From the IMG/VR virus record IMGVR_UViG_3300028581_000141, positions 1 to 32,734 of that record: a stretch of DNA of 32,734 nucleotides, one strand, 5' to 3'. This DNA comes from a virus. A program made the position numbers and the translations under genes. The first letter of the stretch is position 1, and every line of letters starts with the position of its first letter. Shown here one piece after another: positions 1 to 32,734 of this stretch. The notes beneath the pieces were generated by a model. It did not search any database. It had not been told where the DNA came from and worked only from the letters and a program-made list of their open reading frames with translations.

Positions 1-1187
1 ACAGTTTCGCAACCGCTTATTATTTCTTTTTCGTTTGATAAAATGCTATTAAAACAATCAACAAAAGCTTTCTTTATGCTTTCCCCGTTAAAATGTGGAG
101 TAGAACATTTATTCTTAAACTTTGAATTGCACTGCCATATTGTCCTTTTATATTTGCTTGTGGAGTGCCATATCTTACTACCGTAGACGTCACCACAATC
201 ACCACATATAATTTTGCCTGAAAGAACATTGTTGCCACACTTCTTGTTACCGCCTTGCTTTCGCTTTTTAAGCTCATGCTGAACCAAGTCAAATGTTTCA
301 GGTGGTATAATTGCTGGATGGCTATTTTCAACAAAATATTGTGGTATTTCGCCATTGTTAATCTTTTTCTCTTTAGTTAAAAAATCAACTGTATAGGTTT
401 TTTGCAATAGTGCATTTCCACAATATTTCTCGTTGCTCAAAATACTTAAAACCGTACCCCTATGCCACTTTCTTTTCCCGCATGGTGTAGTAATTTCTTT
501 ATTTTCAAGTTCGGTGACAATTGCGTTAATGGCTTTTCCCTCAAAGAACATCTTGTAAATAAGTCTTACAACTTCTGCTTCACTATCAACTATTTTCGGA
601 AGTCCATCTTCTCCCTTTTCATACCCAAGGAATCGTCCATATGGTAGACTTACCTTTCCATCAGCAAACCTCTTTCGTTGCCCCCAAGTGACATTTTCAG
701 AAATACTTCTACTTTCCTCTTGTGCCAGCGAGCTCATAATAGTAATAAGCAATTCACCCTTGCTATCCATCGTATAAATATTCTCTTTTTCAAAAAACAC
801 CTCAACGCCCTTTTCTTTAAGCTGACGGACGGTGGTAAGGGTATCAACAGTATTTCTTGCAAACCTACTAACCGATTTTGTTATGATGAGGTCTATTTTG
901 CCATCCAAGCTATCTGCAATCATACGGTTGAATCCATCACGTTTTTTTGTAGAGGTGGCTGATATACCCTCGTCCGAATACACCTCAACCATTTTCCAAG
1001 CAGGGTTTTCTTCAATCTGCCTTGTGTAATAATCAACTTGTGCTTCATAGCTACTTTGCTGCTCTTCATTATCGGTCGAAACACGAGCGTAGGCGGCTAC
1101 ACGCTTTTTATCAGGTATGCCTATAACAACGGGTGCAAATCTACCGACTGTTGCTGGTATAAATGTTATTTCCTTTTCTAATAGCAT
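1..1187 (-). CDS. Large serine recombinase (integrase family), C-terminus cut by window edge
   Basis: The reading frame is open from the ATG at 1187 to the window edge (395 complete codons). Resolvase domain at about residues 28-170: KRVAAYARVST with the likely nucleophile Ser37, then the helix segment DLIITKSVSRFARNT and the SLAQEESRSISENV motif. A recombinase domain follows (KWHRGTVLSILSNEKYCG), then a zinc ribbon starting GKIICGDCG. Serine integrases of this family cut both DNA strands through phosphoserine links to integrate or excise phage DNA. The start overlaps the end of the upstream recombinase by 10 bp (1178-1187), which implies translational coupling; AAAGGA lies upstream. It is a paralogue of the neighbouring recombinase. 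Which of the two acts as integrase cannot be told from sequence. Confidence 0.93.
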   Translation of the reverse strand, partial: MLLEKEITFIPATVGRFAPVVIGIPDKKRVAAYARVSTDNEEQQSSYEAQVDYYTRQIEENPAWKMVEVYSDEGISATSTKKRDGFNRMIADSLDGKIDLIITKSVSRFARNTVDTLTTVRQLKEKGVEVFFEKENIYTMDSKGELLITIMSSLAQEESRSISENVTWGQRKRFADGKVSLPYGRFLGYEKGEDGLPKIVDSEAEVVRLIYKMFFEGKAINAIVTELENKEITTPCGKRKWHRGTVLSILSNEKYCGNALLQKTYTVDFLTKEKKINNGEIPQYFVENSHPAIIPPETFDLVQHELKKRKQGGNKKCGNNVLSGKIICGDCGDVYGSKIWHSTSKYKRTIWQCNSKFKNKCSTPHFNGESIKKAFVDCFNSILSNEKEIISGCET

Positions 1188-2500
1188 TGGCTATTCATCC
1201 TTTCAATCGACTTTTGACGAGCAAGCTCTTTAGCTTCATCACTCCAACTTTCACTACGTGATTTGTTTTGCCATTGTTTTTCTATTGTATCACCATTGTT
1301 AAGCACAAAAATAAGCAAATTTGAACTCTGCACTCGTATTTCTTTAATATTTTGCATAAAAATTCTTTCATCAAACTCTGTTATTCCCAAAGTCTCTGCT
1401 GTAAGTAAAGTCAATATGCCCTCTGGTATCTGCTTTGACTGACAATGCGTTTTGCCTAGGGTGTTAAAGGTGGAGCAAATCCAAACCGCTTTTTGATATT
1501 TCGTGCCAGCGTTATTAAGTTTACGGCGATAATTTTTGCCACAAACACCACAAACAATTTTGCCTGTAAAAGGATAAGTAGCAACCGTGGTTGACTTTGC
1601 CTCATACCGCTTTGCCCGGCTTTCCATTTCTACCTGTACCCTGTCAAATACTTCTCTGTCAATTATGGGCTCATGATTATTTTTTACTAAGTATTGTGGT
1701 AATTCACCGTTGTTCGTTTTGTTAATTTTAGTTAAATGGTTAGCTATGAACACCTTTTGCAAAAGCAAATCACCACAATATTTTTCGTTCTTTAATATTT
1801 CCCTTATTTTGGTGCTATCCCAAGCACCACCGTTTTTAGGTCTAATGCCCATTTCGTTCAATTTCTTAATAATTGAAACCCTACCCATACCGCTTAGAAA
1901 ATTTGTAAATATTATTTTAATAATCTTTGCTTCTGTTTCGTTTACTGTGATATTGCCCTTTTCAAAATTATAGCCTAAAATAGCAAAAGTGTTTGAAATT
2001 CCGTCTTTGAAGTTATTTCGAATACGCCACTTGCAATTTTCGCTGACCGATAAGCTCTCCTCTTGTGCAAAAGAAGAGAGGATAGTAAGCATAAGCTCAC
2101 CATCCCCTGAAATACTGTGAATATTCTCTTTTTCGAACCAAACATCGACATTTAGTTGTTTTAACTCCCTTACAGTTTCGAGCATTGTAACAGTGTTCCT
2201 TGCAAGCCTTGAAATGGACTTTGTTATAATCATATCAATTTTACCATTACGGCAATCTGTAAGTAGCCTTTGGAACTCTGCCCTATTTTCCTTTGTGCCT
2301 GTCAGCGCCTCATCTGCATATACGCCAACATACTCCCAACCACGGTGTTTTTGAATAAACTCGCTATAATAGCTAACCTGTGCTGACAGTGAATGGAGCA
2401 TTGCTTCCTTGCCACTTGAAACTCTTGCATAGGCTGCAACTCGCTTTTTAGTTGGCAATTTTAATACCGAAGGCTCTATTTTCCTTATGATTCGTGCCAT
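1178..2500 (-). CDS. Large serine recombinase (integrase family)
   Basis: 440 residues from the ATG at 2500, preferred over an upstream GTG at 2518 because GGGGTG lies 7 nt before this ATG. The N-terminal resolvase domain has KRVAAYARVSS with likely nucleophile Ser28, then MIITKSISRLARNT and SFAQEESLSVSENC. The recombinase domain follows (KIREILKNEKYCGDLL) and then a zinc ribbon with CGVCG and a later Cys pair. It shares domain order and many motifs (KYCG, NNGE-PQY) with the recombinase that follows, so the two are tandem paralogues. Such tandem serine recombinases at the end of the lysis module are common in clostridial prophages. Expected role: site-specific integration and excision, perhaps as a heteromeric pair. 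Confidence 0.93.
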   Translation of the reverse strand: MARIIRKIEPSVLKLPTKKRVAAYARVSSGKEAMLHSLSAQVSYYSEFIQKHRGWEYVGVYADEALTGTKENRAEFQRLLTDCRNGKIDMIITKSISRLARNTVTMLETVRELKQLNVDVWFEKENIHSISGDGELMLTILSSFAQEESLSVSENCKWRIRNNFKDGISNTFAILGYNFEKGNITVNETEAKIIKIIFTNFLSGMGRVSIIKKLNEMGIRPKNGGAWDSTKIREILKNEKYCGDLLLQKVFIANHLTKINKTNNGELPQYLVKNNHEPIIDREVFDRVQVEMESRAKRYEAKSTTVATYPFTGKIVCGVCGKNYRRKLNNAGTKYQKAVWICSTFNTLGKTHCQSKQIPEGILTLLTAETLGITEFDERIFMQNIKEIRVQSSNLLIFVLNNGDTIEKQWQNKSRSESWSDEAKELARQKSIERMNSQCY

Positions 2501-2559
2501 GTAATCACCCCTTTTCACTGTCTATGTTAACTCTTATGTTGATACATATCAAGTGATTT

Positions 2560-2718: not shown

Positions 2719-3130
2719 ATTTATTACCGCCTTCCTTAAATTTTATATAACAGGAATGGGAACAGTATTTACGACCTTTATTACCATAACTATCAAATTC
2801 AATTCCACATTGCTTGCATATAATTTTGTATATTGCTTTTTTCTTCACCTTATCTTGATTTTTGTTCCACCAATTATGTCGGCATGTGTCATCACAGAAC
2901 ATCTTTAATTTAGCATTTTTATTTTGAACAATGTCTTTACCGCAGCATTTGCAAAATTCGCCCTTTTCGAAAGGCTCCTGAGTTGGCACAGTTTTAGGTA
3001 AATAAATCTTATTTCTACTACAGAAAGCCTTTATTGTTCCTTCTAAAATGTTTACTGCAGTGGCGATTTGCGAATAACTATTACCCTCAAGTCGCATTCT
3101 TCGAATTGTTCTTTTCTGTTCACTTGTCAT
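2693..3130 (-). CDS. HTH plus zinc-finger putative DNA-binding protein
   Basis: 145 residues from the ATG at 3130. A GTG 15 nt upstream is open in frame, but GGAGG sits 8 nt before this ATG and overlaps that GTG. N-terminal residues 1-45 look like a sigma-70 region 4 or homeodomain-like helix-turn-helix (TIRRMRLEGNSYSQIATAV). Two Cys clusters of similar layout follow: CKCCGKDI...FCDDTCRHNWW and CKQCGIEF...YCSHSCYIKF, each able to bind one zinc. It lies between the amidase and the SHOCT-like and recombinase genes, and overlaps the next gene by 26 bp. A role in regulating or assisting the recombinases is inferred from position; no function is established. Confidence 0.8.
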   Translation of the reverse strand: MTSEQKRTIRRMRLEGNSYSQIATAVNILEGTIKAFCSRNKIYLPKTVPTQEPFEKGEFCKCCGKDIVQNKNAKLKMFCDDTCRHNWWNKNQDKVKKKAIYKIICKQCGIEFDSYGNKGRKYCSHSCYIKFKEGGNKYDARAVST

Positions 3131-3166
3131 AAGGTTAACCTCCACTGTTTTTTAAACATAACAATA

Positions 3167-3832
3167 TTATTTAAGCTTTTCAGCCACCCTCTGAATTAAC
3201 AATCCTGTATATTCACCGTTTACCGACTTTCCATTAACAGCATTTTGCACCCAATAATCAGGAGTATTAACAACACCCTTTGCCACAAGTACATTTACTG
3301 CATCAGCAAGTGACATAAGCTGTGACCCTTTCAGCTCGTTTATCCTCTGTTGCACAGCCCATCTAAAATCATCAACTGTTTTATTGTATTCAGCAAAATA
3401 TGAAATAGGGTCAGTGTGTTTTGTTTCATGCCATTTAGCAGAAACTTCAGCGTGTGACATAAGGTTGTCCTTTGTTACAGTGGTTACGCCTATCTGCTCA
3501 ATGAAAATATCTGCAAACAGATTAACGGCTGTATCCCACACTTCTTTAAATTTTGCCTCATCATGCTCTTTTGGTCGACACAGTTCAACACCTATCATAC
3601 TTAGGTTTGCAGTTCTGCCTGCGTGCCACGAAACCTCATTGTAAGGTATAAGCTGAATTGCTTCGTTCCAATCTACCACAGCTTGAACTGATGAACCTCT
3701 ATTTTTAGCATTCCAATAATCAAAGTGATTTTGTGCCGTTCCTCCTGGGTTGCCTGTTTCATGCACAACAACGCCCTTTGGTTTAAGCCTTGTTCCTGGT
3801 CTATTGTTTTTTATTAACATTTGTTTATACAT
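3167..3832 (-). CDS. N-acetylmuramoyl-L-alanine amidase (endolysin)
   Basis: 221 residues. Residues about 15-150 form an Amidase_2 (T7 lysozyme-like, zinc-dependent) domain: GVVVHETGN with zinc ligand His24, SWHAG at 69-72, and SHAEVSAKWHETKHTDP at 126-142 with the second zinc histidine and the third ligand region. The enzyme cleaves the amide bond between MurNAc and the stem peptide to lyse the host. The last 50 residues form a separate small helical domain, probably for wall binding, of a type I do not recognise with certainty. There is no signal peptide, consistent with release through the holin encoded two genes upstream. The RBS AGGGG lies 6-7 nt before the ATG. Confidence 0.93.
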   Translation of the reverse strand: MYKQMLIKNNRPGTRLKPKGVVVHETGNPGGTAQNHFDYWNAKNRGSSVQAVVDWNEAIQLIPYNEVSWHAGRTANLSMIGVELCRPKEHDEAKFKEVWDTAVNLFADIFIEQIGVTTVTKDNLMSHAEVSAKWHETKHTDPISYFAEYNKTVDDFRWAVQQRINELKGSQLMSLADAVNVLVAKGVVNTPDYWVQNAVNGKSVNGEYTGLLIQRVAEKLK

Positions 3833-3842
3833 AATACACCCC

Positions 3843-4148
3843 TCATCTCTCTGTTGGTAGTTCTTTTAATTTTTCTATTAAATCTGCAATAACGCCATTC
3901 CCACTTAGTGCCTTATACTGCTCATAAAGCTCTTCAATATTCTCACGTTCATAAATTGGCAGGTATCCACGCACCATATATACGTTATAAACTTGAATAA
4001 TCTGTGCTCTAAGGAGTGCCTGAACACCCCTTTGTATTGCAACGCCATTTTTATGCATCTTTATATAACATTTCCACAGCCAGAAAATTGCAGAGCTAAT
4101 TATTCCAAATCCAGCCTCAATCCAATACTTAAGTATAAATTCTCTCAT
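3843..4148 (-). CDS. Small membrane protein of the lysis cassette
   Basis: 101 residues. One N-terminal transmembrane segment (about residues 5-27, YWIEAGFGIISSAIFWLWKC) is followed by a basic, helical cytoplasmic-type region with the pattern AQIIQVYNVYMVRGYLPIYERENIEELYEQYKALSGNGV. I recall similar short proteins between holin and amidase in many clostridial prophages, usually annotated as phage protein or holin. It could be a second holin, an antiholin or an accessory factor. GGAG lies 6 nt upstream of the ATG; the gap to the amidase gene is only 10 bp. Confidence 0.7.
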   Translation of the reverse strand: MREFILKYWIEAGFGIISSAIFWLWKCYIKMHKNGVAIQRGVQALLRAQIIQVYNVYMVRGYLPIYERENIEELYEQYKALSGNGVIADLIEKLKELPTER

Positions 4149-4161
4149 GTTGTTCTCCTCG

Positions 4162-4566
4162 CTACTTCGATATTTTTACATATTGTTCAATTTTACTATC
4201 AATCCATAAATCAACCTCACCACTGCTAAGTTCTTCCTTTAGAACCTCAATAGCTTTGAGTCCCATAATTGATAATGCCTTTTGCTTAGCTATCATAAAG
4301 GCTTTTTGTTGCTCGTCGACAGTAAAAGCTTTTTCCTTTTTGAATGAATCGACGTAAACTTGGCTCACAGCTATAACAGCAGTTTTAATTGCATCTTCTG
4401 CAACACCAAGATATTTTTTAAGCCTTTCGTTTTTGATATCCTCTGTAAGCTGTTTGGTTTTAAGTTCAATAAAACTGATGAAATATTTTGCAATTACTAT
4501 AATCAGCGGAACAATCACCGCTGTGGAAAGCAGGTTAATATTTTCTTGCGTTAATAAATTATTCAT
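4162..4566 (-). CDS. Phage holin, LLH family
   Basis: 134 residues from the ATG at 4566 (MNNLLTQENINLL). An in-frame start 45 nt upstream is open, but AGAGGA is placed correctly for this ATG. One hydrophobic segment at about residues 14-33 is followed by a long charged helix (KQLTEDIKNERLKKYLGVAEDAIKTAVIAVSQ) and an AFTVDEQQKAFMIAKQKALSIM segment, the pattern of the Phage_holin_6_1/LLH family. Holins form membrane lesions that release the endolysin. It precedes the small membrane protein and amidase genes, which supports a lysis cassette. Confidence 0.85.
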   Translation of the reverse strand: MNNLLTQENINLLSTAVIVPLIIVIAKYFISFIELKTKQLTEDIKNERLKKYLGVAEDAIKTAVIAVSQVYVDSFKKEKAFTVDEQQKAFMIAKQKALSIMGLKAIEVLKEELSSGEVDLWIDSKIEQYVKISK

Positions 4567-4588
4567 AACAAATCCTCTTTTCTTTAAT

Positions 4589-5260
4589 TTAATATAGTAG
4601 TATTGGGTCAAACTTCATAGAACCAAAGCCGCCCCTCGGGTACCAAGTATCAAGTAGCCACGCACTGACCGTTGTGGGGTTTACAGCATTTGCAGGAATT
4701 AAAAATTCAGCAGAAGTTGCCCTTGTGTCTAACAAATTGTACCACCTATCACCAATCTTATAGTAAATGGTGTTACCACCTTCGATTATTGAATTTATAA
4801 CATTATCTGCTATATAAAAAGATGATTCCAACTGATAAGCATCAACTCCAACCCTAACGCTGTTATTTTCCACACTGTTAATGTTAATTGGGAAGTCAGG
4901 TATAGTTAACGTTTTTTGGAGTGAAACCGTTAAATCCTCTCCACCAATTTTAAAATCAAGTGTTGTACCTCTTAGCGCCGTTGGTAGAGTAAATCTAAAC
5001 AAAAACGTACCATTTGTAGTAGTGGCTTGTTGGTCTATAAAAACAATGGTGCTACTACTGATTCCAACATTACTTTTTGAAACTAATAACGTTATTTGCT
5101 TACCTGCACCACTTGATAGGTTTCCAGTTATATCTATCCTTCCACCCTCATACAAGTTAACATTATAATTAACGGAAGATGATGAAACAAAAATTGGTGT
5201 AGCCAGTAAAAAGCAAAAAAGCAGTGCCAGGCACATGCTTTTAATTATAATTTTATTCAC
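4589..5260 (-). CDS. Exported protein with bacterial Ig-like N-terminal domain, function unknown
   Basis: 223 residues, starting at a GTG that overlaps the end of the upstream gene by 8 bp. The N-terminus is a clear Sec signal peptide (KSMCLALLFCFLLATPIFVSSS, cleavage probably near residue 27). Residues about 31-115 look like a beta-sandwich: a G-rich strand pattern with SSGAGKQITLLV, a DQQATTTNGTFLFRFTL strand and a TTLDFKIGGE strand, as in Ig-like repeats of Firmicutes surface proteins. The C-terminal 100 residues are unfamiliar (IYYKIGDRWYNLLDT...). There is no sortase motif. A secreted protein between fibre and lysis genes is not a typical virion part; it may be a lysogenic conversion gene or a wall-associated factor. 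Confidence 0.7.
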   Translation of the reverse strand: MNKIIIKSMCLALLFCFLLATPIFVSSSSVNYNVNLYEGGRIDITGNLSSGAGKQITLLVSKSNVGISSSTIVFIDQQATTTNGTFLFRFTLPTALRGTTLDFKIGGEDLTVSLQKTLTIPDFPININSVENNSVRVGVDAYQLESSFYIADNVINSIIEGGNTIYYKIGDRWYNLLDTRATSAEFLIPANAVNPTTVSAWLLDTWYPRGGFGSMKFDPILLY

Positions 5261-5846
5261 TTATAACACCGTCCTTAACAGCAATAGTGAGCTTTCCATC
5301 TTTAAGCTTTCCAACCGCTATAACTTCTTGTAGCTTAAATATCCTTAGTTCAATAAGTTCAGGAACTGTAAAAATCAGTGGCGGTGCAAGTATTCTACCG
5401 TTTGGCAATAGCTGTTTGTCTACATATTGACCGTTTAAATAAAGCTCATATAAATCTGCATTTAAGCTTTTGGGAATATCAATACTAAGCTCTGATTTAT
5501 TTCTATCAACCTTTTTAATAGCGTATGTACCCTCAACAATTATGTTTCCGCTAATTCCGAATAGTTCAAGAGTTGTCAGCGGTGCTTGTGTTGGTGTGAC
5601 TTTAACCTCAACAGCTGGTGCTTTTGTTGGCTTTGGTGTTGCTTTGGGGGTTTTGCTAGGTAGCGGTTTTGGTGTTGCACTGGGAACAGGTGTCTGCTCT
5701 ATAATTGCCGCTTGCTCAATTGGTGGCACAACATTTGGCATAGTTTTCTTTGGCACTAAAACACTACCGCCAATTGCAAGAGACACTGCAACTAAAGCAG
5801 CTGTTGCAGTTGCCACAACTTTTTTCTTTTTACTAAGTTTAGCCAT
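5253..5846 (-). CDS. Membrane-anchored protein with Pro/Thr/Lys-rich stalk, function unknown
   Basis: 197 residues; GGAGGG precedes the ATG. The basic start (MAKLSKKKK) leads into one hydrophobic segment (VVATATAALVAVSLAIGGSVLV, about 10-31), an uncleaved signal anchor or signal peptide. Residues about 50-90 form a low-complexity stalk (PVPSATPKPLPSKTPKATPK...) typical of wall-spanning regions. The last 100 residues form a compact domain with beta-strand patterns (GNIIVEGTYAIKKV, ELYLNGQYVDK). It overlaps the next exported-protein gene, so the two are co-translated and probably act together outside the membrane. No enzyme motif is visible. Confidence 0.7.
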   Translation of the reverse strand: MAKLSKKKKVVATATAALVAVSLAIGGSVLVPKKTMPNVVPPIEQAAIIEQTPVPSATPKPLPSKTPKATPKPTKAPAVEVKVTPTQAPLTTLELFGISGNIIVEGTYAIKKVDRNKSELSIDIPKSLNADLYELYLNGQYVDKQLLPNGRILAPPLIFTVPELIELRIFKLQEVIAVGKLKDGKLTIAVKDGVISE

Positions 5847-5857
5847 TAAATACCCTC

Positions 5858-6550
5858 CTAATTTTTGACCATCAATGCACCAAGCTCAAAAAATACATTG
5901 CTCTGTGTTTTAACAAGCTTTGTAATAACTGTTGGCTGCGTAGACGGTTGTGTATAATTTCGTTCATCGTAAAATGCAATACTAACCCTGCTTGATTCAA
6001 AAGTAATTGGCACTGTGGTAAATGCCTCTGTTATACTAAGTTTTCCGCTAATATCTTGGCTATCAATAATAACCGCATACCTTGATAGTGCTTTTGATGG
6101 GGCTAAAGGTTGCACCTTAAATTCTGCACTAACACCGCTTATGAGGTCAGTAACCGAATAAGTAGCAATTAAGTCGTTTAATAAACTAAAGTCAAATTGA
6201 CCTGTTGCTCCTGTTTCTCCAACATTACCCTTTTCGCCTTGAACACCTTGCTCACCAACATCACCTCGTTCACCTGTGTCACCCTTTTCGCCTTTATCAC
6301 CATCAAAATAATCAATACCTTTTATAGGTGTATAACCGTCGTTACCCTTATCTCCTCGGTAATAGTCATTTGCCACTTTTTGCTCTAAGTCCTCGCTTAT
6401 TATGGTAGCTCGGTCTATTGCAATATTTGTTTTTTCTTCTAAATCGACTGGTATTTTTTCAACCTGTTCACTAAGGTCAGCAACCGTCCTTGCTAATTCA
6501 TTTAAATCCTCTTGCGTTGCAAGTTCAATATCTCCGACCGACATACCCAT
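5858..6550 (-). CDS. Collagen-like tail appendage protein
   Basis: 230 residues with GGGGGTG 7 nt before the ATG. The N-terminal region (about 10-60) has heptad-like hydrophobic spacing (LNELARTVADLSEQVEKI) and looks like a coiled coil. About residues 69-116 are collagen-like G-X-Y triplets (GDKGEKGDTGERGDVGEQG...), interrupted near 72-82 by YTPIKGIDYF. The C-terminal 110 residues form a globular beta-rich tip. Collagen-like triplets in phage fibres form trimeric shafts, so this is probably a host-binding appendage. The position next to other fibre genes agrees. Confidence 0.8.
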   Translation of the reverse strand: MGMSVGDIELATQEDLNELARTVADLSEQVEKIPVDLEEKTNIAIDRATIISEDLEQKVANDYYRGDKGNDGYTPIKGIDYFDGDKGEKGDTGERGDVGEQGVQGEKGNVGETGATGQFDFSLLNDLIATYSVTDLISGVSAEFKVQPLAPSKALSRYAVIIDSQDISGKLSITEAFTTVPITFESSRVSIAFYDERNYTQPSTQPTVITKLVKTQSNVFFELGALMVKN

Positions 6551-6563
6551 ACATATTCACCCC

Positions 6564-7436
6564 CTAATTTTCCTTAATAACCTGCAAAATACTATCAGCA
6601 GGTGTTGTATTATTGTAATATTGAAATAAAAGTATATAATAAACGCTCCCTTGCGAGAGCGTGAATGTTTTGCTATCGAAGTAGTCAGTATTTAGCTGAT
6701 TAAAGCTACTGTCATACAGCCAACCATCGTGGTCACCTGTTGCTTGTTTTATTTTAAAAGTGTAATTTCCTGCAACTGTTGGAGTAAATTCAAAAACTGC
6801 AAAATCCTCTTTGTTTGTTGTTTGAAGCCTGCCAGATGGAACAGCAGTAATTTCGGTCAACGTACCACCCACGTTTGCAAATATACGTTTTGCTTTTACG
6901 ATATTTCCATCAACATTAACAGATACCTCGTTCAATGCAGTTGGAGTTACCCCATAATAGTTTGCGAGCATACCCTTGAAATAGCCATTTGCCGACAAGT
7001 CCAATGTATTCAAATTAGTAACAAGCTTCATGTTTTCAAGACTCATTGAAGTAAACCACTGTGTATATCCGCTTGGAAGGTAGCTTGGAACAGCAACAAC
7101 CTTTGTTATTGTTCTCGCCGTAAACGAAACATCTATGTAAACCTGCGTTGCCTCTTGCACAAAAACTGTTCCTACATTCTCCCAACCATAATTCTGTCGA
7201 TACGCATATATGTACCAATTGCGATCAGTTACATATCTTGTGTAGGCAGGGTCTTTTGTAATAAGCAGCCCAACTCTTAGTCCAACGCACCTTGGAATAG
7301 GGTTATTAAATATATATGGCCATACATTGCAGCTATTTATACTCTCCTGCGTGCTTGATATCTGGTAACCATATTTTTGAATAGTAGTGTAATCAAAATA
7401 CGGATATTTCATTATAAAATCTATATTTCTGCCCAT
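6564..7436 (-). CDS. Putative tail fibre/appendage protein with C-terminal beta domain
   Basis: 290 residues starting MGRNIDFIMKYPYFDYTTI; GGCGG precedes the ATG. The centre contains an unfamiliar beta-rich region (VYIDVSFTARTITKVVAVPSY). Residues about 205-290 (FAVFEFTPTVAGNYTFKI, then a predicted YYILLFQYYN strand) resemble the bacterial pre-peptidase C-terminal (PPC) fold, a beta-sandwich often used for substrate or surface binding. It sits between the collagen-like gene and a short fibre gene, so a receptor-binding or baseplate-peripheral role is likely. No enzymatic motif is seen. Confidence 0.6.
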   Translation of the reverse strand: MGRNIDFIMKYPYFDYTTIQKYGYQISSTQESINSCNVWPYIFNNPIPRCVGLRVGLLITKDPAYTRYVTDRNWYIYAYRQNYGWENVGTVFVQEATQVYIDVSFTARTITKVVAVPSYLPSGYTQWFTSMSLENMKLVTNLNTLDLSANGYFKGMLANYYGVTPTALNEVSVNVDGNIVKAKRIFANVGGTLTEITAVPSGRLQTTNKEDFAVFEFTPTVAGNYTFKIKQATGDHDGWLYDSSFNQLNTDYFDSKTFTLSQGSVYYILLFQYYNNTTPADSILQVIKEN

Positions 7437-7446
7437 AATTCACCGC

Positions 7447-8067
7447 CTAAAAAATTTTCAATAGTACATCGCCGCTTTGAGTTACAGGTGGAGTATCCCC
7501 CGATGTCCAAAATACAATGTTTCTAATCTGCCTTGTTGTATAAGCAGTATTGCTTTGTGCGGTTACCTTTGCCGCCAAAGTGCTGTCGGCATTTGACCTC
7601 ACAAAATTACTATCCACATAATCCTTGTTTGCAATATCAGCACCAATAGCAGGATTTGCAACCTGAGCTCTGCCACTTGCATCTCTTATAATCAATCTGC
7701 TTGCAGTATTAGCACTTACGGCATTATCAAGCTTTTGTTTGTCGCTTGAACTCATAAAACCATTAGCTGAAGTTGTTGCATTTGCGTGAGTGCCACTGTT
7801 AATATGAGAAAAGCAATTTTCAAGAGTGGTAGCAGGTGTTTCCCACCAGTTAGTTTTTCCTGTAATAGCTTTTATACGGTTAGCAAGCCAGCCAATGACC
7901 GTAGACAGTTTACTTTTTGTAGCAACAGCAGGTGGCGCCACACTCTGGTCAGCGGTTACCATAAGTGCCTCGTCAAGTATGTCACAGTTTTCGTTTAGCA
8001 CAGCTACATCCGCATTTTCAGCCAAGTAAGGCTTTTTAAATCCGTAGTTCGGAGTTATGTTTGGCAT
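7447..8067 (-). CDS. Tail fibre-like protein
   Basis: 206 residues, beginning MPNITPNYGFKKPYLAENAD and AVLNENCDILDEAL, an N-terminal motif I recognise from short tail fibre proteins of Firmicutes phages. This part probably attaches to the baseplate. The middle contains SGTHANATTSANGFMSSSDKQKLD, the H-x-x-A-T-x-x-x-x-G-F-x-S-x-x-D-K-x-K-L-D pattern common in phage fibre shafts. The end is short and may be a foldon or tip. GGGGTG lies upstream of the ATG. Confidence 0.8.
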   Translation of the reverse strand: MPNITPNYGFKKPYLAENADVAVLNENCDILDEALMVTADQSVAPPAVATKSKLSTVIGWLANRIKAITGKTNWWETPATTLENCFSHINSGTHANATTSANGFMSSSDKQKLDNAVSANTASRLIIRDASGRAQVANPAIGADIANKDYVDSNFVRSNADSTLAAKVTAQSNTAYTTRQIRNIVFWTSGDTPPVTQSGDVLLKIF

Positions 8068-8071
8068 TATT

Positions 8072-10003
8072 TCACCCCTTAAACCATATCATTATTTTAT
8101 CTTCTGCTACTCTTTTTAGAACCTTATACCCATTATTTATAGCTTTTGTAGCCTTGCCATCTTCATTTGGCTGGCACAATCCACCAACCTCGCAAGTACA
8201 ATCATCGTAAACGATTAGCTTTCCAAGAACCCCAACTGCTGACCATTCCTTACGTTTCAAGCGTGGAATGTACTCACTCGTAGCGTCATATTCAGGGTTT
8301 AAAACAGCCTGGCTTTCTATATGTTCTTCCTGCATTACCACCGTTTTCTTTTCTGTCTTGCCGTCCTCACCCAAAACTTCACGTTCTTCTGTCACAGCAT
8401 GAACAGTTACATCGTGATATAGTACCCTTCCAAAATCATCGGTCATATATTTGCCATTCCAATGTAGTTCAGCACTATCTCCAAGTATTGCAGGATTACC
8501 ACTGACAACACCTAAAACAAACGGCTCAAAGAGTCCTGACTTTTTAATTTTTCCACCATCAAGAGTAACGAAATATCCAACTCTATCTTCATTATTGGGG
8601 TTTCCGTCCGACCATTCAAAAAGCTCGGCATAATCCGCACAGGGCGAGGAATATGTGCCATCAATAAACATATTACCGTTTTGCAGTATCTTTGCCGCAA
8701 GTCCCATGCTATTAAAGGATGTACCATTCGCTAATGCCCATGCATATGCTTCAGGCGACACGCCATATTTGCCACAGATGACAGTACCCTCATGTGCTGC
8801 TATTGCATATAGCCCGCTTGCCTGCGAATAATTATATCCTGCCATAGACCACCCAAAGACAGCATTAGCTGAATAATAATCCTCAGCTCGGAAAATATAA
8901 CCGTCTGGCATTAATGCTTCACCATAACCGCCCCAGCCTAAATCACAATCAACATATATTTTTTGCCCTGAAACCGATAACACTTTAGCGCATGAGTGAA
9001 TGATAGTATTGGAATTATTTTTCCAACGTATAAGCACATAATTTCCTTCAAGATAACTAACATCCTCTGTGTTTGCGGCAGTTACTGATTTTTCGACAGA
9101 ACTAAAACCAATACATTTGATTGCTCTTCCTGCGGTATAACCAATATTAAAAGCAACACTTCTGCCACCGTAGGCTTGACCATCACCAAAAGCTGATGCC
9201 TTTTCTCGGTAGGCTTTACCGTAGTTTGCGGCAAAAGTCTGATAATTTTCTGCATAGCCACCGTTGCAAGCAAATGAAAAGTATCCCTTTGCGTTGCCAC
9301 CATTTGCTGCAAAGGCTACCGAACCTTCTGCGTTCCCGTAGTTTACAGTTGTAGCATTAGCCCCAGTAGCTGAACTTCCCATAGTGACACCACCGTTGCC
9401 GTTTATCTTATATAAATCAGAAAGTGGCACAAAAGTGCTTATATATACCATATCTAAATATGGATATCCCACAGGTGGACTACTTGGCAAACGCAGGTCA
9501 GCAACTGTTAAATAATTGTATTCTGTATTAATGTTGGTGATTTCAGTAATATACCGTCCGCTATCCCAAGAGCTATATGCAGACCAGTCTTGGTTAGAGT
9601 AATTGCAATATATGCTCAAAGCTACCTTATCTCCAACAGATATTGGTATTTCACCCTCGCTAAAATAGAAATTAATACGGTGGTTTGCAATGTCCACACT
9701 ATCTGCGTAAAAGTTATTTGAATTCATGATAATCTTTTTGCTGCCTATTATAATGAGATTATCACCAACAACAACATTTCCGCTTCCTATAATTTGATTG
9801 TTATTACCATAAACAATATTGTCATTTCCCTCAATTACATTGTTTTCCCCTTGAATATATAGCTGATTCAAGGCTTGATTTCCACTTCCTGATAAAATTT
9901 CATTTATTGCAGGAACAATCTGCTTGCTGTTGGTTTGTAGACCCGCCACATCACCAACATCCGAAGCTAATACCAAGCCTATATCTGTACTTTGTAATGC
10001 CAT
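8072..10003 (-). CDS. Large repeat-rich tail fibre with C-terminal self-cleaving (Peptidase_G2-type) domain
   Basis: 643 residues. Residues about 52-93 carry six 7-residue repeats (GENNVIE, GNDNIVY, GNNNQII, GSGNVVV, GDNLIII, GSKKIIM), suggesting a beta-solenoid or trimeric beta-helix. Residues about 221-285 contain five 13-residue repeats of the type NYGNAEGSVAFAA, as in the YadA-like head of trimeric adhesins. From about 455 the sequence SPCADYAELFEWSDGNP and EDRVGYFVTLDGGKI, then VLGVVSGNPAILGD, matches the Peptidase_G2 autoproteolytic (IMC) domain, which acts as an intramolecular chaperone and is cut off after trimer folding, as described for the phi29 pre-neck appendage. It lies directly after the baseplate genes, as expected for the main host-recognition fibre. 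Confidence 0.85.
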   Translation of the reverse strand: MALQSTDIGLVLASDVGDVAGLQTNSKQIVPAINEILSGSGNQALNQLYIQGENNVIEGNDNIVYGNNNQIIGSGNVVVGDNLIIIGSKKIIMNSNNFYADSVDIANHRINFYFSEGEIPISVGDKVALSIYCNYSNQDWSAYSSWDSGRYITEITNINTEYNYLTVADLRLPSSPPVGYPYLDMVYISTFVPLSDLYKINGNGGVTMGSSATGANATTVNYGNAEGSVAFAANGGNAKGYFSFACNGGYAENYQTFAANYGKAYREKASAFGDGQAYGGRSVAFNIGYTAGRAIKCIGFSSVEKSVTAANTEDVSYLEGNYVLIRWKNNSNTIIHSCAKVLSVSGQKIYVDCDLGWGGYGEALMPDGYIFRAEDYYSANAVFGWSMAGYNYSQASGLYAIAAHEGTVICGKYGVSPEAYAWALANGTSFNSMGLAAKILQNGNMFIDGTYSSPCADYAELFEWSDGNPNNEDRVGYFVTLDGGKIKKSGLFEPFVLGVVSGNPAILGDSAELHWNGKYMTDDFGRVLYHDVTVHAVTEEREVLGEDGKTEKKTVVMQEEHIESQAVLNPEYDATSEYIPRLKRKEWSAVGVLGKLIVYDDCTCEVGGLCQPNEDGKATKAINNGYKVLKRVAEDKIMIWFKG

Positions 10004-13403: not shown

Positions 13404-13664
13404 CTAACTTATAATACCATGATGACCTATATCTAATAATATAATTATAATATCATCGTCATATCTCCAAAGAATCCTAATATCCATATTTACACTCATT
13501 TCAAAAAGATTACGAATCCCTTGAACTTTTTTTGTCCTCAATGATGGATAAAAAGGGTCTACTGACAGCATTTTAATTTTCTTCGCAACCATTTTTTGCT
13601 CTTCAAAAGACAGCTTCTTAAGATTTTTTTCAAAATCCTTCGTGAACTTCAGTTTATAGTTCAT
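13404..13664 (-). CDS. RelE/ParE-superfamily toxin
   Basis: 86 residues from the ATG at 13664; a TTG one codon upstream is open. The fold pattern is RelE/ParE: a basic first strand and helix (MNYKLKFTKDFEKNLKKLSFEEQKMVAKKI), then VQGIRNLFEMSVNMDIRILWRYDDDIIIILLDIGHHG, with the conserved R-I-x-W and the GHH ending seen in RelE/YoeB-type toxins. Such proteins are usually ribosome-dependent mRNA endonucleases. The start overlaps the AbrB-type antitoxin gene by 11 bp, the usual antitoxin-first layout. It interrupts the tail operon between the XkdP-like and hub genes and is probably a moron cassette. Confidence 0.85.
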   Translation of the reverse strand: MNYKLKFTKDFEKNLKKLSFEEQKMVAKKIKMLSVDPFYPSLRTKKVQGIRNLFEMSVNMDIRILWRYDDDIIIILLDIGHHGIIS

Positions 13665-13944
13665 CAATCTTTATACCCATATCACCAAACATTTCTGCTA
13701 CATTATCGTATGATTTCAAGTCCTGTTTAACGCCTTCTGTTTCTTTTATTATTCTTGCTATCTCTTTTATTTTGTCTTTTGGATATACAACAACTGGGCA
13801 GAGAAATATGCCACCATCTTTTGCTATGACATCGAATTTATCGCCTTCGATTACGCCTATAGATTTGGTTATCTCAGCAGGTATGGTAATTTGAGAACGC
13901 CCTCTTAATTCTACTAACATAATGGTCAACTCGCTTTCTGACAT
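13654..13944 (-). CDS. AbrB/SpoVT-type antitoxin
   Basis: 96 residues from the first ATG (13944); an internal ATG at 13920 (MLVELRGRSQITI) is the more usual family start and gives 88 residues. The swapped-hairpin DNA-binding domain is clear: ELRGRSQITIPAEITKSIGVIEGDKFDVIAKDGGIFLCPV. The acidic C-terminus (GVKQDLKSYDNVAEMFGDMGIKIDEL) is the likely toxin-binding tail. A promoter with a perfect -10 hexamer lies just upstream (13965-13993), so the pair can be expressed in the lysogen while late genes are silent. It probably represses that promoter with its toxin. Confidence 0.85.
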   Translation of the reverse strand: MSESELTIMLVELRGRSQITIPAEITKSIGVIEGDKFDVIAKDGGIFLCPVVVYPKDKIKEIARIIKETEGVKQDLKSYDNVAEMFGDMGIKIDEL

Positions 13945-28106: not shown

Positions 28107-28790
28107 TCAACCACAAACTTTAACTATGCCAGCCATAACGAAATTAACGCATGGAAGTGAAACACCATTCCCCCACATTTTATATTCAGCACTATCAGAA
28201 TAAGGGTTTTTAAGCCACTTTATAATTTGTTTTATGCTTTTTGGTTTAGAAGACGTTCCAATAATTTTTCGGTGAGTTTCAAAAACATCAGCCCAAAATG
28301 ATATATCAACATCGGTTGGGTTTTCAGTTTCCAAATCAGAACACCAAAAGCTTGGAAACCCTTGCAATTTTAGACACTCAAATGGTGTAAGCCTTCTTAC
28401 AGTGTATGTAGGTTCAACTATTCCGTTTTGATAACCAGGATTAGTACCATTTACTATTGTATTTGCCTTTCCGTCCTGGCGATAACACTGGCTCTCTGCC
28501 TTCATTTGTGGGTAAAAGCTTGCTGGTTGTGCAACAGCTGATGGTCCCTGTGCATTTAAGGTAGATGTTTTACCATCTGCGCTTATCCCAAGGTTTCGTG
28601 CAAAATTTTGCCCACAATTAAAGGTTTCACGGTCAATTGCATATACAACACCATGTCGGTCAACAGTATTTAATGTAAAACTAACATCTTCATTAATACC
28701 ATCGCCCCTTGGGCCATTCTTATCAGCTCTACCAATCATGCTACCTTGCAAGGCAACAACAGCAATACCACCTTGATTATTATTCCGCAT
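28107..28790 (-). pseudogene. DNA cytosine-5 methyltransferase, C-terminal fragment (split by RIT element)
   Basis: 227 codons from an ATG that belongs to the inserted element (28790) to TGA at 28109-28107. The phage part begins at NQGGIAVVALQG. Conserved m5C methyltransferase motifs visible are TVRRLTPFECLKLQGFP (motif IX region) and YKMWGNGVSLPCVNFV (motif X); motifs I to VIII with the catalytic Cys lie beyond the right window edge. The fragment joins the right-hand piece exactly as ...GGNPACN|QGGIAVV... once the element is removed. Alone it cannot methylate, but it could be translated from the element's own GGAGG and ATG and might complement the N-terminal part in trans, which is speculation. 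Confidence 0.88.
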
Positions 28791-28866
28791 AATAAGTTAT
28801 CCTCCATTTCATAAAAATACCGAAGAATACTGCAAAAAAAATGCATATTCTTCGGAATAATATTTT
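28774..28866. repeat. Left inverted repeat of the RIT element (93 bp)
   Basis: Starts TGATTATTATTCCGC and ends AATATTTT, matching the right repeat in inverse orientation over 93 bp with very few differences (a G/A change and loop-region indels). It contains a palindrome at 28820-28855 (CCGAAGAATA...TATTCTTCGG) with one unpaired base, and TTATTCCG occurs in opposite orientations at its two edges, which may be recombinase binding arms. The inner edge touches the stop of the third recombinase gene. Read outward it also carries GGAGG, a 10-nt gap and ATG. The palindrome followed by TATTTTTAT could end the recombinase transcript. Confidence 0.9.
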
Positions 28867-28867
28867 G

Positions 28868-29905
28868 TTACTTCAAGCAATAAAGACGTTTAATAATATT
28901 ATCATCGCCTTCCCAAACGGCAAGGACATCAGATATTGCTGTGTTTTTTGACGTTGCTTTTTTTAGTGCTTCGCTTTTCATTTCAGTATCTGCGTAAGCA
29001 TAAATTTTGGTGGTGCTTGTATTTGCATGTCCCAAATATTCGCCAACCAGTGGAAGCGGTATCCCAGAACGATACAAATGAATGGCTCTTGTGTGACGGA
29101 ATTGATGAGGGTGTACTTTGAGTGGAACATGCGGGTTTTCTTTTCTTGCTTCTCTGCCGTAATTCTTTACAAAACGAGCTACAGTGTCAGGCGACATTTG
29201 ATGTCGTTGCTTGTGAATTACAGTATAAAAAAGAAAATCATCATTGCATCTTGAATCAATTGGGTGAAAAAAATTAAGGTAGCGGCGCAAATGCTCCACG
29301 GTTTTTTCCATCAAAGGCACAGAACGTGGCTTTTCGCCCTTTCCGATGAGGTAAATATACGGCGTTCCATGGTCGAGAATTAAATCGCCAATCTTAATAT
29401 CAAGCATTTCTTGACATCTTGCTGCCGTATCATACATCAAAAGCATAAAGAAGCCATTTCGAAGACCCCAATGGTTTTTCATATCCGGCAAAGCGAGTAG
29501 CGTTTTCATTGCATCTTCCGTAAGGAAATCCACCACTTTGCCCGGGACTTTTTGTATTACAACATCATCAATAGCGATTTTCAGGTAAACATTTGCAATA
29601 TCGGATATCTTGCAATAATTAGCAAATGAACGCAACGCCATTAATCTTTGGTTCCGAGTGCTGCTGCTACAATGTCTTTTTTCTTGTAGCCAATCAAGAT
29701 ATGCATTAACATTTTTTGCAGTGAAATCCTCAAATGTTAGCTTGACAATGGATATGCATTGTTCCTGCGTCAAAAAATCAACAAACTGATTAAGTGCAGT
29801 TTTGTAAGATTTTAACGTGTTTGGTCTGGAACACAGCTGTTTTGGTAAATATATAGTCAAATAGTCACGCACCATCTTGAAAAAGGAATCATCTTTAATT
29901 TTCAT
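28868..29905 (-). CDS. ritC: RIT tyrosine recombinase C (third gene)
   Basis: 345 residues. N-terminal SAM-like core-binding domain at about 8-115 (LKSYKTALNQFVDFL), catalytic domain from about 125. Active-site residues visible: Arg163 in YDTAARCQEM, Lys189 in IGKGEKPR, His267 and Arg270 in HPHQFRHTRAIHL, His293 in YLGHANTSTT, and nucleophile Tyr302 in IYAYAD. All six catalytic positions are present. The start overlaps the ritB stop by 4 bp (ATGA), with GAGG 7 nt upstream. The stop is 1 nt from the left inverted repeat, so no cargo follows. Confidence 0.93.
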   Translation of the reverse strand: MKIKDDSFFKMVRDYLTIYLPKQLCSRPNTLKSYKTALNQFVDFLTQEQCISIVKLTFEDFTAKNVNAYLDWLQEKRHCSSSTRNQRLMALRSFANYCKISDIANVYLKIAIDDVVIQKVPGKVVDFLTEDAMKTLLALPDMKNHWGLRNGFFMLLMYDTAARCQEMLDIKIGDLILDHGTPYIYLIGKGEKPRSVPLMEKTVEHLRRYLNFFHPIDSRCNDDFLFYTVIHKQRHQMSPDTVARFVKNYGREARKENPHVPLKVHPHQFRHTRAIHLYRSGIPLPLVGEYLGHANTSTTKIYAYADTEMKSEALKKATSKNTAISDVLAVWEGDDNIIKRLYCLK

Positions 29906-30873
29906 CGCTCTACCTCTGGTATCAGCACAGAAAATCTCGCTGATATTTCAGGCGGAAGCTGTGAAAAGAGTTCAGGAACAAGATGAATGTAATAATATGT
30001 GTGTTCAAATCGTTCGTGTCCCATATATGCGCTTAAATACGGAACACAATTTTCTAAATCACGACCTTCTTCAAGCCAACGATAAAGAGTGTGAGTTGCG
30101 AATGTATGTCTAAAATCATATGGTCTTGGCGGATTGCCGGCAATTTCCGTAAGTCCGGCATTGTTTAAGCAACGAGATAAGATATCTCTTACCCAGTGTC
30201 TTCCATATGCTTCAGAGTTTTTTCCGTTGCTCGGAAAAAAGTAGTCACTGTTAGGCATTACCCGCCTAACCGCAATATCATATTTCCTGCAAAGTTCAAG
30301 CATACTGCTGTCCATAACGATAATTCTATCTCGATATCGTTTGGATTCAGGGATAAAAATAGTACCTTTTTCTAAATCAATATCCTTTCGTTTTAGTAAC
30401 CGCCCCTCATAAGGGCGCAAGCCTCCAGCATACAGTAACCGTAGTAGAACAGGAGCAACCAAGTGATTTGTTGGGTAGTTATGATCGGCGTACAAGGCGT
30501 CCACCGCTTCAAATATTAGCGTTAATTCATTCTCTGTGAAAATGTGCGGTACATAGCGACGATTAGGGCATTTACCACAGTTTCTCGGGATTACAAAGGC
30601 TGGGATATCGTTTCGTGTCATATATCGAGCTAACTCTCTGATAGAACTCATGCGCCTTGAAAATCCTTCTTTGCCTTCGTCAGAATATGCTTTGCCCCAC
30701 GACATCGCCATCTCACGCGTCAACGTTGTTTCTTTTGGGAATGACACCATACACATTGCATCAAAGTTAATTAAATATCGTATATTGCTTTCGTATTTAA
30801 ATCCGAATGCACGCTTTTGTTGTAAAAAACTTTCAATATACTGTGCCAAATTGCTATTAAATGTTTCGTTCAA
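29902..30873 (-). CDS. ritB: RIT tyrosine recombinase B (second gene)
   Basis: 323 residues if started at the TTG at 30873, which overlaps the ritA stop by 4 bp (TTGA) with AGGAG 8 nt upstream; an ATG at 30921 inside ritA is open and would add 16 residues. Core-binding domain at about 5-100, catalytic domain after it. Catalytic Arg153 (GGLRPYEG), Lys178 (ESKRYRD), Arg255 in YDFRHTFATH, His286 in MGHERFEHT, Tyr295 in YYYIHL. The first His of the H-x-x-R motif is replaced by Tyr252. A Cys pair (NCGKCPNRRYVPHIF, about 98-112) may be a small zinc site. Confidence 0.92.
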   Translation of the reverse strand: MNETFNSNLAQYIESFLQQKRAFGFKYESNIRYLINFDAMCMVSFPKETTLTREMAMSWGKAYSDEGKEGFSRRMSSIRELARYMTRNDIPAFVIPRNCGKCPNRRYVPHIFTENELTLIFEAVDALYADHNYPTNHLVAPVLLRLLYAGGLRPYEGRLLKRKDIDLEKGTIFIPESKRYRDRIIVMDSSMLELCRKYDIAVRRVMPNSDYFFPSNGKNSEAYGRHWVRDILSRCLNNAGLTEIAGNPPRPYDFRHTFATHTLYRWLEEGRDLENCVPYLSAYMGHERFEHTYYYIHLVPELFSQLPPEISARFSVLIPEVER

Positions 30874-32114
30874 GCTGTCCACTCCTTTCGACTTTGATAT
30901 TTCCCCATCGGCATAGCGCATTGTCTTAAATGTTCTATGTCAAGAGCCATATATCGCTTCGTGGAGCTTAACCTTGCGTGTCCCAAAACCTCGCTTATTA
31001 CACCAACCGGAACATCAGCTTCAAGCATTAACACTCCAACGCCTCGTCTAAAGCTGTGAAAGCTTATCTTTGCCGATGTTGTTTGTGCTACGCCTGCAAT
31101 GCCAGCGTACCGCTCGACTACGTCACTGATATCCGAGAGTCCGATATATGGATGTGAATTTCTCAGGAATACAGTGTTATCCTTTGAAGGCGGTCGCGCA
31201 TTAAGAATGTAATCAGCAATTGCATTACCGACAGAGTTATCAAGTGGCAGCACATTGGGCTTATTCGTTTTACTTTGGACTATACGAATTTCATGTGTTT
31301 CCCAAACAATGTCACGAAGTTGTAACTGCTTTATATCAACAGCGCGAAGACCGGTATAGCTTGCCAAAAGCATCATGGCATAATCTCTTTTGCCAAGTGT
31401 GCTTCTTTTGTCAACTGCGGATAATATTTTGTTTTCTTCATCTTGCGTGAAGCCGTAATAAATCTTGCGTAAGCGCGGTGTTTTAATATCTAATGCTATC
31501 AACAATTTAGCATCAAGCATTTCGCAAGCAACATAATACGCAAGAAATTGTTTGATGCTTACTACTATATCGGTCATGGAAAACTTTCTGCGTTCGGCTA
31601 AAGCTGTCAAAAAGTCCGATATCATTGGTGAAGTAATGCTTTTTAAGTCAAAAATCGAACAATCCTCCAAATGGCATAAAAATATTGTGATGCCACTTGT
31701 TTTACTATCAATGGTTCGTTTTTTGTGCATTTTGGCTATAGACTCTAAAAAATTATCAAGCAGTGCTTGATAGCATTCTGTTAACTTTCGTTTATTTATC
31801 GGAGATAAACACCTACGAGTTATGTGTTCGTATAAATAATACTCGTCTGTCATAGACGTGAATTTGCGCAACCTTTGAAAGCAATTTAATGATACAGAGC
31901 CTTTTTCAACCTCTTGATTCATAAGTTCCAAGTAGTTTTTTGTAACTGCGGGCGAATACAAGAGTATGTTATTGCATTTGTAAAATCGTGAAACTTTGTA
32001 AAAGGCAGTTTTGTATGGCTTAATCGTTGCATAAGGGTGACCGTTATCTTTAAGATACGTCATCACAGCTTCGCAAACGACTTGAGCGGGTATTTCTTTG
32101 GCATGTTTAAGCAT
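30870..32114 (-). CDS. ritA: RIT tyrosine recombinase A (first gene)
   Basis: 414 residues with GAGGTG upstream of the ATG. An N-terminal extension (about 1-110) precedes the SAM-like core-binding domain (about 112-210) and the catalytic domain (about 215-400). Active site: Arg257 in SYTGLRAVD, Lys282 in QSKTNK, His353 and Arg356 in FHSFRRGVG, His379 in LGHARLSST, nucleophile Tyr388 in KRYMALD. All positions are intact. It is the longest of the three, as usual for RitA. Transcription probably starts within or next to the right inverted repeat, 40 bp upstream. Confidence 0.93.
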   Translation of the reverse strand: MLKHAKEIPAQVVCEAVMTYLKDNGHPYATIKPYKTAFYKVSRFYKCNNILLYSPAVTKNYLELMNQEVEKGSVSLNCFQRLRKFTSMTDEYYLYEHITRRCLSPINKRKLTECYQALLDNFLESIAKMHKKRTIDSKTSGITIFLCHLEDCSIFDLKSITSPMISDFLTALAERRKFSMTDIVVSIKQFLAYYVACEMLDAKLLIALDIKTPRLRKIYYGFTQDEENKILSAVDKRSTLGKRDYAMMLLASYTGLRAVDIKQLQLRDIVWETHEIRIVQSKTNKPNVLPLDNSVGNAIADYILNARPPSKDNTVFLRNSHPYIGLSDISDVVERYAGIAGVAQTTSAKISFHSFRRGVGVLMLEADVPVGVISEVLGHARLSSTKRYMALDIEHLRQCAMPMGKYQSRKEWTA

Positions 32115-32152
32115 ATTTTTATCACCTCATTGTTTAATATGCCCAATACCCT

Positions 32153-32245
32153 AAAATATTATTCCGAAGAATACTGCATTTTTTTGCAGTATTCTTCGGT
32201 ATCTTTATGAAATGGAGGATAACTTATTATGCGGAATAATAATCA
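32153..32245. repeat. Right inverted repeat of the RIT element (93 bp)
   Basis: Inverted copy of 28774-28866. Here the internal palindrome (32164-32199) is perfect: 15-bp arms CCGAAGAATACTGCA and its complement around six T. Read outward, GGAGG and ATG are also present, but the frame ends after eight codons (MRNNNHYP). Confidence 0.92.
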
Positions 32246-32270
32246 TTATCCTTAATTAGGGATAATGATT
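32241..32270. repeat. Palindrome across the right insertion junction
   Basis: Arms AATCATTATCC (32241-32251) and GGATAATGATT (32260-32270) pair perfectly over 11 bp around an 8-nt loop. The left arm begins in the right inverted repeat; the right arm ends with the TGATT that belongs to the methyltransferase gene. The 20 bp between (32246-32265) occur only at this end. Confidence 0.85.
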
Positions 32271-32734
32271 ACAGGCAGGGTTGCCACCTGTTTGATCGAT
32301 TGTTCTTGATGTTTCAGCTTCATAAATACCACTGCTCGGATTATCAGAAAGCATTGAATTACTTTTATCAGAGCAAATACCATAAGCCTTTTGTTCACTA
32401 ACCACAAACGGTTGATTATTTCCACCAGTTCCGTAATTAGCCATAACTGTTTGTGCTACATCAAGCGGGCCTATAAAACGGGTATCCTGTCCGTGGTTTT
32501 CGAATACACATTGCGGACCTTTAAAATCTGAATTAAGCAAAGCAAATGCTGTATTTTCAGAAATAGGTAGACCTTTTTGACGTTCACTCATAATCGCAAT
32601 ACATAATTGATTGTCACCCATTTGTGCTCTTAATGTGCAAGCTTGCTCACATGAAAAATGACCTCCCAATCTGCTCATTGCTCCTGGTTCAAAACTGATT
32701 GTCTCTCCAGTGCAACTTTTAGCATTGGGGGTAA
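32256..32734 (-). pseudogene. DNA cytosine-5 methyltransferase, middle part, split by RIT element and cut by window edge
   Basis: The frame is open to the window edge, so the gene starts outside. Visible sequence is ETISFEPGAMSRLGGHF, TLRAQMGDNQLCIAIM, and FENHGQDTRFIGPLDVAQTVMANYGTGGNNQPFVV, the variable target-recognition region found in phage-type m5C methyltransferases of Firmicutes. Phage sequence ends at ...GGNPACN (32268); the inserted DNA then adds HYP and a TAA stop. The remainder of the gene is at 28107-28778. Such enzymes methylate phage DNA against host restriction; as interrupted, the product lacks motifs IX and X. Confidence 0.88.

Follow-up and report, generated by a model that had tools for sequence, protein, structure and literature searches.

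Gene order and co-occurrence across different carriers establish, at the level of sequence, that two phage proteins with predicted export, P2 and P1, form one mobile, inherited three-gene module together with a virion domain, X. The original prediction described the P2-P1 pair and overlooked this third member. X, P2 and P1 probably form a matched set for handling attachment to bacteria, and the reading we prefer, tentatively and at a probability of roughly 0.4, is that P2-P1 may block X-mediated adsorption at the producing cell, as a form of superinfection exclusion or self-adsorption block matched to the module's own X. Exported phage proteins alone would not surprise a specialist; the surprise lies in their linkage to a portable domain that is found on fibre, baseplate-type and tail tube proteins.

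The window, i.e. the whole stretch of DNA that was analysed, is 32,734 bases long and comes from an IMG/VR virus record; its structural genes lie on the minus strand. In descending coordinates, baseplate-type genes (recognised by eye), a Peptidase_G2 fibre gene, two more tail-region genes and a collagen-like fibre gene are followed by P2, P1, a holin-like gene, a gene for 101 amino acids and an Amidase_2 endolysin gene. The features are as follows.

8072-10003, minus strand: Peptidase_G2 fibre (Pfam)
5858..6550, minus strand: collagen-like fibre gene with domain X at its C-terminal end (Pfam Collagen, E 1e-7; PHROG tail fibre families)
5861..6172, minus strand: domain X, residues 127-230 of the fibre, ~100 residues, delimited by comparison with relatives
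5253..5846, minus strand: P2, exported or membrane-anchored, 197 amino acids (ORF, N-terminal hydropathy)
5751..5819, minus strand: hydrophobic N-terminal segment of P2, residues 10-32 (hydropathy)
5583..5750, minus strand: Pro/Thr/Lys-rich stalk region of P2, residues 33-88 (sequence)
5256..5582, minus strand: C-terminal domain of P2, residues 89-197, a predicted beta-sandwich (AlphaFold2, mean pLDDT 84.0, pTM 0.77)
5269..5276, minus strand: Shine-Dalgarno-like AAGGACGG of P1, inside the end of the P2 gene
5253..5260, minus strand: 8-bp overlap of P2 and P1
4589..5260, minus strand: P1, exported protein, 223 amino acids (ORF, N-terminal hydropathy)
4904..5173, minus strand: predicted Ig/FnIII-like domain of P1, residues 30-119 (AlphaFold2, Foldseek, VIA-align)
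4592..4903, minus strand: C-terminal domain of P1, residues 120-223, akin to segments of large exported bacterial proteins
4162..4566, minus strand: holin-like gene, directly downstream of P1 (PHROG 13712, E 4.4e-28)
3167..3832, minus strand: Amidase_2 endolysin (Pfam, E 3.1e-16)

Profile scans of 2.9 million IMG/VR viral contigs placed P1 on seven contigs. A scan of a bacterial collection gave one P1 locus, in a Bacillota assembly (a narrower earlier profile had given none), and genome searches added P1 loci in G292 and G309. Eight groups result: the window with L002 and L003 (96-100% identical to it), L005 (two contigs), L006, L012, L013, L017 (from a Bacillota assembly), L042 and L043. The gene with domain X precedes P2-P1 clearly in six of these groups and weakly in the two distant ones, L042 and L043. 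The order X, P2, P1 is seen in the window, L002, L003 (whose contig starts inside X), L005, L006, L012, L013 and L017, and also, with the weak X, in L042 and L043; wherever the contig goes on, X is always followed by P2 and P1. The X of L042/L043 is 16% identical to that of the window. With an X profile of the six nearer sequences, L043 (E 0.017), L042 (0.02) and L061 (0.022), the last being a second X gene of G309, were the top three of 186 ORFs, and the strong X matches obtained among genomes of the class of G003 and of the order of G309 come from a profile already holding those rows. In these distant loci, P2 was matched with E 1.2e-14 and 2.7e-14 and P1 with E 2.8e-30 and 1e-44. The linkage argument is carried by the six groups with a clear X.

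The proteins that carry X differ among the groups. By Pfam, the carrier has Collagen in the window, Collagen plus BppU_N in L005 and BppU_N in L013, with BppU_N standing N-terminal in both of the latter; by PHROGs, it belongs to tail fibre families (window and L005), to a minor tail protein family (L013) or to a family of unknown function (L017 and L043). In L012 the carrier is a major tail protein (PHROG 2645, E 3.3e-95, residues 1-223 of 320) with X behind it, and the L006 carrier is 71% identical to it. Both phages also keep a plain major tail protein gene (in L012 matching PHROG 2645 with E 4.3e-102), X being on the second copy.

L012, 3882-4538 and 6374-7336: pair of major tail protein genes, one plain and one with C-terminal X
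L006, 1887-2543 and 4379-5338: pair of major tail protein genes, one plain and one with C-terminal X

In L042, X lies inside a 498-residue protein and not at its end, and no family was found for this carrier; the position of the L042, L017 and L043 carriers suggests that they are structural. According to PMC8718954, the Ig/FN3 domains at the C-terminus of tail tube proteins face outwards, and in SPP1 plain and extended subunits occur side by side; by analogy, the tail tube is most likely the place where X is exposed in L006 and L012. Its position there is that of the C-terminal Ig/FN3 domains of lambda gpV, T5 pb6 and the extended form of SPP1 gp17.1, but X differs from these in standing on a second gene copy and in having two exported partners. 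X gave no match to the extensions of related tail proteins. Several of these relatives have a different C-terminal extension of about 100 residues, which was a Big_5 Ig domain in three of three tested. Two copies, or an extension of Big_5 type, were seen in other phages with a tail protein of the L012/L006 family as well.

Scans of IMG/VR with the P1, P2 and X profiles found the identical seven contigs, and no contig with X only, P2 only or P1 only. The profiles were built from these phages and contain the loci that they found again, so re-finding them is by construction and the linkage rests on the absence of such single-member finds; the scans start from exact peptide patterns, by which distant members may be missed, and they may omit near-window records. 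Among 391 genomes of the class of G003, P2 was found in three, and X matched strongly in the same three; P1 matched 36, over a long stretch in the same three as P2 and mainly over the Ig-like half in the best matches of the other 33, except for G333, where it was the C-terminal half. A weak second P1 match was seen in G110 (over 44-193, E 3.9e-4). Weak X matches in G042, G099, G148 and G194 (E 0.001 to 0.005) were read as chance, since their neighbours look like housekeeping or exported host genes. In the order of G309 (95 genomes), X and P2 were found in the same two genomes, and P1, at an E limit of 1e-12, at full length in two and by its first part in two more; only 52 bases of contig remain beyond the second X gene of G309, which leaves no room for P2-P1. 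P1 was present in one of 51 genomes of the order of G003 and in one of 398 of a phylum sample, G003 itself both times.

The same association is seen from the structural side. Of 223 relatives of the major tail protein the best 80 were kept; two of these loci have X, P2 and P1 together, and the remaining 78 have none of the three (55 of the 80 loci reach 3 kb or more downstream). From the lysis side, the stretches fetched for 10 distant relatives of the holin-like gene (of 14 loci) contained none of X, P2 and P1, some of these stretches being short and L002 and L003 being left out of this check.

The layout of the P2-P1 pair is as originally described in coordinates, strand and 8-bp overlap, and its placement between fibre and lysis genes is confirmed by the Pfam and PHROG matches of the flanking genes. 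P2 starts with ATG at 5846, after a gap of 11 nt from the fibre gene, and P1 with GTG at 5260; the holin and lysin genes follow in the same direction. Across relatives, 8 of 10 rows share the 8-bp overlap; in L042 it measures 1 bp and in L043 11 bp. Both proteins are under purifying selection in the comparison of the window with L005 (P1, dN 0.150 and dS 1.35; P2, dN 0.148 and dS 0.74).

Export of P1 and P2, as judged from hydropathy and not from a trained signal-peptide predictor, is well supported. Among 45 gene models ranked by N-terminal hydrophobicity, P1 is first, the holin-like gene second and P2 third; the N-region is net positive in both P1 and P2, and comparable N-terminal segments are found in all other homologues scored (seven P1 and seven P2). 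The claim that the two are exported proteins agrees with strong N-terminal export segments that are kept in homologues. A lipobox of the form [LVI][ASTVI][GAS]C was not found near the N-terminus in eight P1 and eight P2 sequences.

In line with the further claim that the pair does not resemble known virion or lysis proteins, no structural family matched either protein. No convincing match to P1 or P2 was obtained in Pfam, PHROGs, NCBIfam, PADLOC or PDB sequences. The best match, for P2, was to a PHROG of unknown function over the stalk region (E 0.0065), PADLOC models gave 0 families up to E 1 for the six proteins given, and no PDB sequence matched P1, P2 or X with E below 0.2. By tblastn, 50,697 phage records contained no match to P1, P2 or X at E up to 1. 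A literature search, which covered titles and the start of abstracts and had subscription papers and bioRxiv preprints outside its scope, found no such module.

In P2, the predicted membrane anchor and the Pro/Thr/Lys stalk (residues 52-77 read TPVPSATPKPLPSKTPKATPKPTKAP) hold for the window, but not as a constant feature: the stalk is present in the window, L002, L003, L005, L006, L012 and L017 and missing in L013, L042 and L043, and is therefore optional. Structure prediction of the two C-terminal domains, which had been proposed as a check, gave a confident, beta-rich model for P2 but no usable one for P1 (AlphaFold2 pLDDT under 50). Structural matches to the P2 domain were weak to middling (best Foldseek E 0.028, best VIA-align Z 5.8), and Foldseek gave none at E 0.001 or better in the PDB or viral models.

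There is a hint only that this P2 domain may be related to X. In a first comparison with six-row profiles, which we did not accept as homology, P was 0.032, and column shuffling gave as high a score in 11 of 200 cases. With eight-row profiles, P was about 5e-4 to 6e-4, 0 of 500 shuffles reached the score, and the register was much the same in leave-one-out runs (seven true omissions); P rises to 0.032 when the L042 rows are dropped. The kinship is kept as a hint because a control pair, the P2 C-terminal against the P1 N-terminal domain, also beat shuffles (0/200). Profile comparison gave P 0.43 for P1 against X and P 0.39 for P1 against full P2.

For P1, the Ig-like domain that had been proposed appears in the predicted structure as a sandwich of seven strands (residues 30-119; AlphaFold2, block means of pLDDT 68-87 over 31-120), which falls among Ig/FnIII-like domains with VIA-align Z up to 9.9 over about 90 residues, in agreement with Foldseek; no Pfam Ig family was matched at E 0.1 by any of nine P1 members. 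The N-terminal half resembles the first domain of exported Clostridia-type proteins, where a like Ig-like domain comes right after a signal-peptide-like start. The C-terminal half matches the start of a 644-residue and the end of a 657-residue exported protein, both of G333; in G922 it matches the beginning of an exported protein, and in G889 a single site whose reading frame is unconfirmed. These resemblances to parts of exported bacterial proteins support export of P1. The Clostridia-type proteins read are bacterial and mostly longer (about 230 to 650 amino acids where complete or nearly so), whereas P1 is a two-domain phage protein. A domain like the P1 C-terminal half, with a core of YYxVG..WYDL type, also opens or closes large exported bacterial proteins in L044 (4735-8842, minus strand) and L067; the two proteins of L044 gave no Pfam match that passed a family's cut-off. 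Receptor mimicry by P1 was considered and set aside, as the C-domain profile has matches in just 3 genomes among the 58 from the order of G333, the G889 match has no confirmed frame, and there is no second P1-like match in G003.

How such a module might work can be outlined from these observations. X would be displayed on the virion through an available structural protein, be it a fibre, a BppU-type or a tail tube protein, as suggested by what is known of its carriers, whose identity is shown for most groups. P2 and P1 would be made together from the late transcript, exported, and then either retained on the surface of the producing cell or released there. Their linkage to X suggests that their partner is X itself or the receptor of X. 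With the receptor occupied, or X capped, by P2-P1, X-mediated adsorption would be blocked, and progeny and sibling phages would neither inject into doomed cells nor stick to cell fragments. Surface display, receptor masking and superinfection exclusion had been suggested at the outset; a surface or adsorption role, and with it masking or exclusion, is made likelier by the linkage of the pair to a virion-borne domain, but the lysogen-specific part of that suggestion is not supported. Weighing against exclusion, a protein of this kind brings less benefit when made late than when made early.

The closest precedent for the exclusion reading is T5 pb5/Llp. According to PMC9586334, the gene for Llp, a small exported protein, adjoins the receptor-binding gene pb5 on its downstream side, Llp blocks the receptor, and exclusion in T5 reportedly keeps phage from adsorbing to infected cells and to fragments. 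P2-P1 follow X throughout, X being a candidate receptor-binding domain. However, Llp is a single lipoprotein made early by a phage of a diderm host, whereas P2-P1 are two non-lipoproteins placed late; the lipobox cysteine of the Llp and Cor exclusion lipoproteins was not found in the eight P1 and eight P2 sequences; and, unlike Llp, P2-P1 are linked to a domain that switches carrier. If the exclusion reading is right, a virion surface domain and exported proteins would make up one heritable unit, which may be a general means by which phages control adsorption to the cell that produces them and would provide one reason why some phages decorate the tail tube.

The strongest rival, and the more surprising one if real, is assembly on X from outside. 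P2-P1 would then be accessory virion parts that are exported and bind X as virions exit the lysing envelope, completing or lengthening the adhesion device. This is a real possibility, if an unlikely one. The linkage is to a virion domain and not to lysogeny or lysis genes, and P1 is predicted to contain adhesion-type beta domains. Furthermore, in lactococcal TP901-1 the BppU upper baseplate protein has the BppU_N domain that is also found in the L005 and L013 carriers of X, and a receptor-binding gene (BppL) is expected downstream of BppU-type genes; what follows the BppU-type carriers of X, however, is P2 and P1 with their export segments, where a BppL-like receptor-binding protein would be expected. 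Against this, the N-terminal segment of P2 would keep it in the membrane unless cleaved, and parts of tailed phages seldom carry export signals. A broader version, in which an adhesin is completed from outside, with X as a socket, P2-P1 as its ligand system exported by the dying host and the set traded between unrelated carriers, among them the tail tube, is also unlikely. Here P2 would perhaps have an X-like domain and P1 would be built from modules like those of bacterial surface proteins, and the two would either assemble on X after lysis or serve as a matched receptor mimic and mask.

Lysogenic conversion, in which P2-P1 are displayed in the uninduced lysogen and alter its surface or exclude other phages, is improbable. 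It would agree with the exported, surface-protein-like domains and with the Ltp-type exclusion proteins that, according to PMC3952083, occur in temperate phages of Gram-positive bacteria. As described there, Ltp of the temperate Streptococcus thermophilus phage TP-J34 is a membrane-tethered extracellular protein; it is, however, a lipoprotein from the lysogeny module that is expressed in the prophage, whereas P2-P1 adjoin structural genes and no lipobox was found. By position, P2-P1 are placed in the late operon or late region, and their linkage is to a virion domain. Expression in the lysogen, as originally envisaged, is not supported by this position, by promoter-like sites at background in 3000-8100 (16 against 15.3 expected from shuffles), or by L006 and L012, where the pair sits between an amidase gene and tail genes; in a sequence scan around the module, terminator-like sites are also at background level.

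It is very unlikely that P2-P1 act as a tether, catching the phage's own virions through X at the surface so that phage would be spread to new places by the cells that produce it or survive: a stalked, probably anchored P2 linked to X would suit this, but the stalk is missing in L013, L042 and L043, and retention after lysis carries an obvious cost. A spanin-like lysis accessory, in which the overlapping exported pair helps to disrupt the envelope, is extremely unlikely, for although in the window, L005 and L017 the pair adjoins holin and lysin genes, two-component spanins have an outer-membrane lipoprotein partner and the P1 and P2 sequences tested show no lipobox, their domains are predicted to be beta, L017 comes from Bacillota, the 10 distant holin-gene relatives are without the module in the stretch fetched, and tail genes follow it in L006 and L012.

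Several other features of the window and its relatives were noted. L072-L081, whose contigs measure 9 to 402 kb, carry further members of the window's holin-like family, with 32-34% identity; two of these loci were read, and in one of them, L074, the holin-like gene precedes a gyrase-like gene (by eye), with no clear lysis cassette. Inside the tail gene region of the window, at 13404-13944 (minus strand), a gene for a ParE-like toxin (E 1.5e-4, just below Pfam's cut-off) and one for a MazE-type antitoxin (E 1.4e-5) overlap. Two tandem large serine-recombinase-like genes (by eye) lie at the low end of the record (3-2518, minus strand). Near its high end are three tandem tyrosine recombinases with Pfam Phage_integrase (28868-29905, 29902-30921 and 30870-32114, minus strand), flanked on one side by a C5 cytosine methylase-like piece (28107-28790, PF00145, E 8e-6) and on the other by a similar-looking stretch without a Pfam match (32256-32732); as a whole, 28107-32732 (minus strand) looks like a recombinase-trio element within a phage methylase gene.
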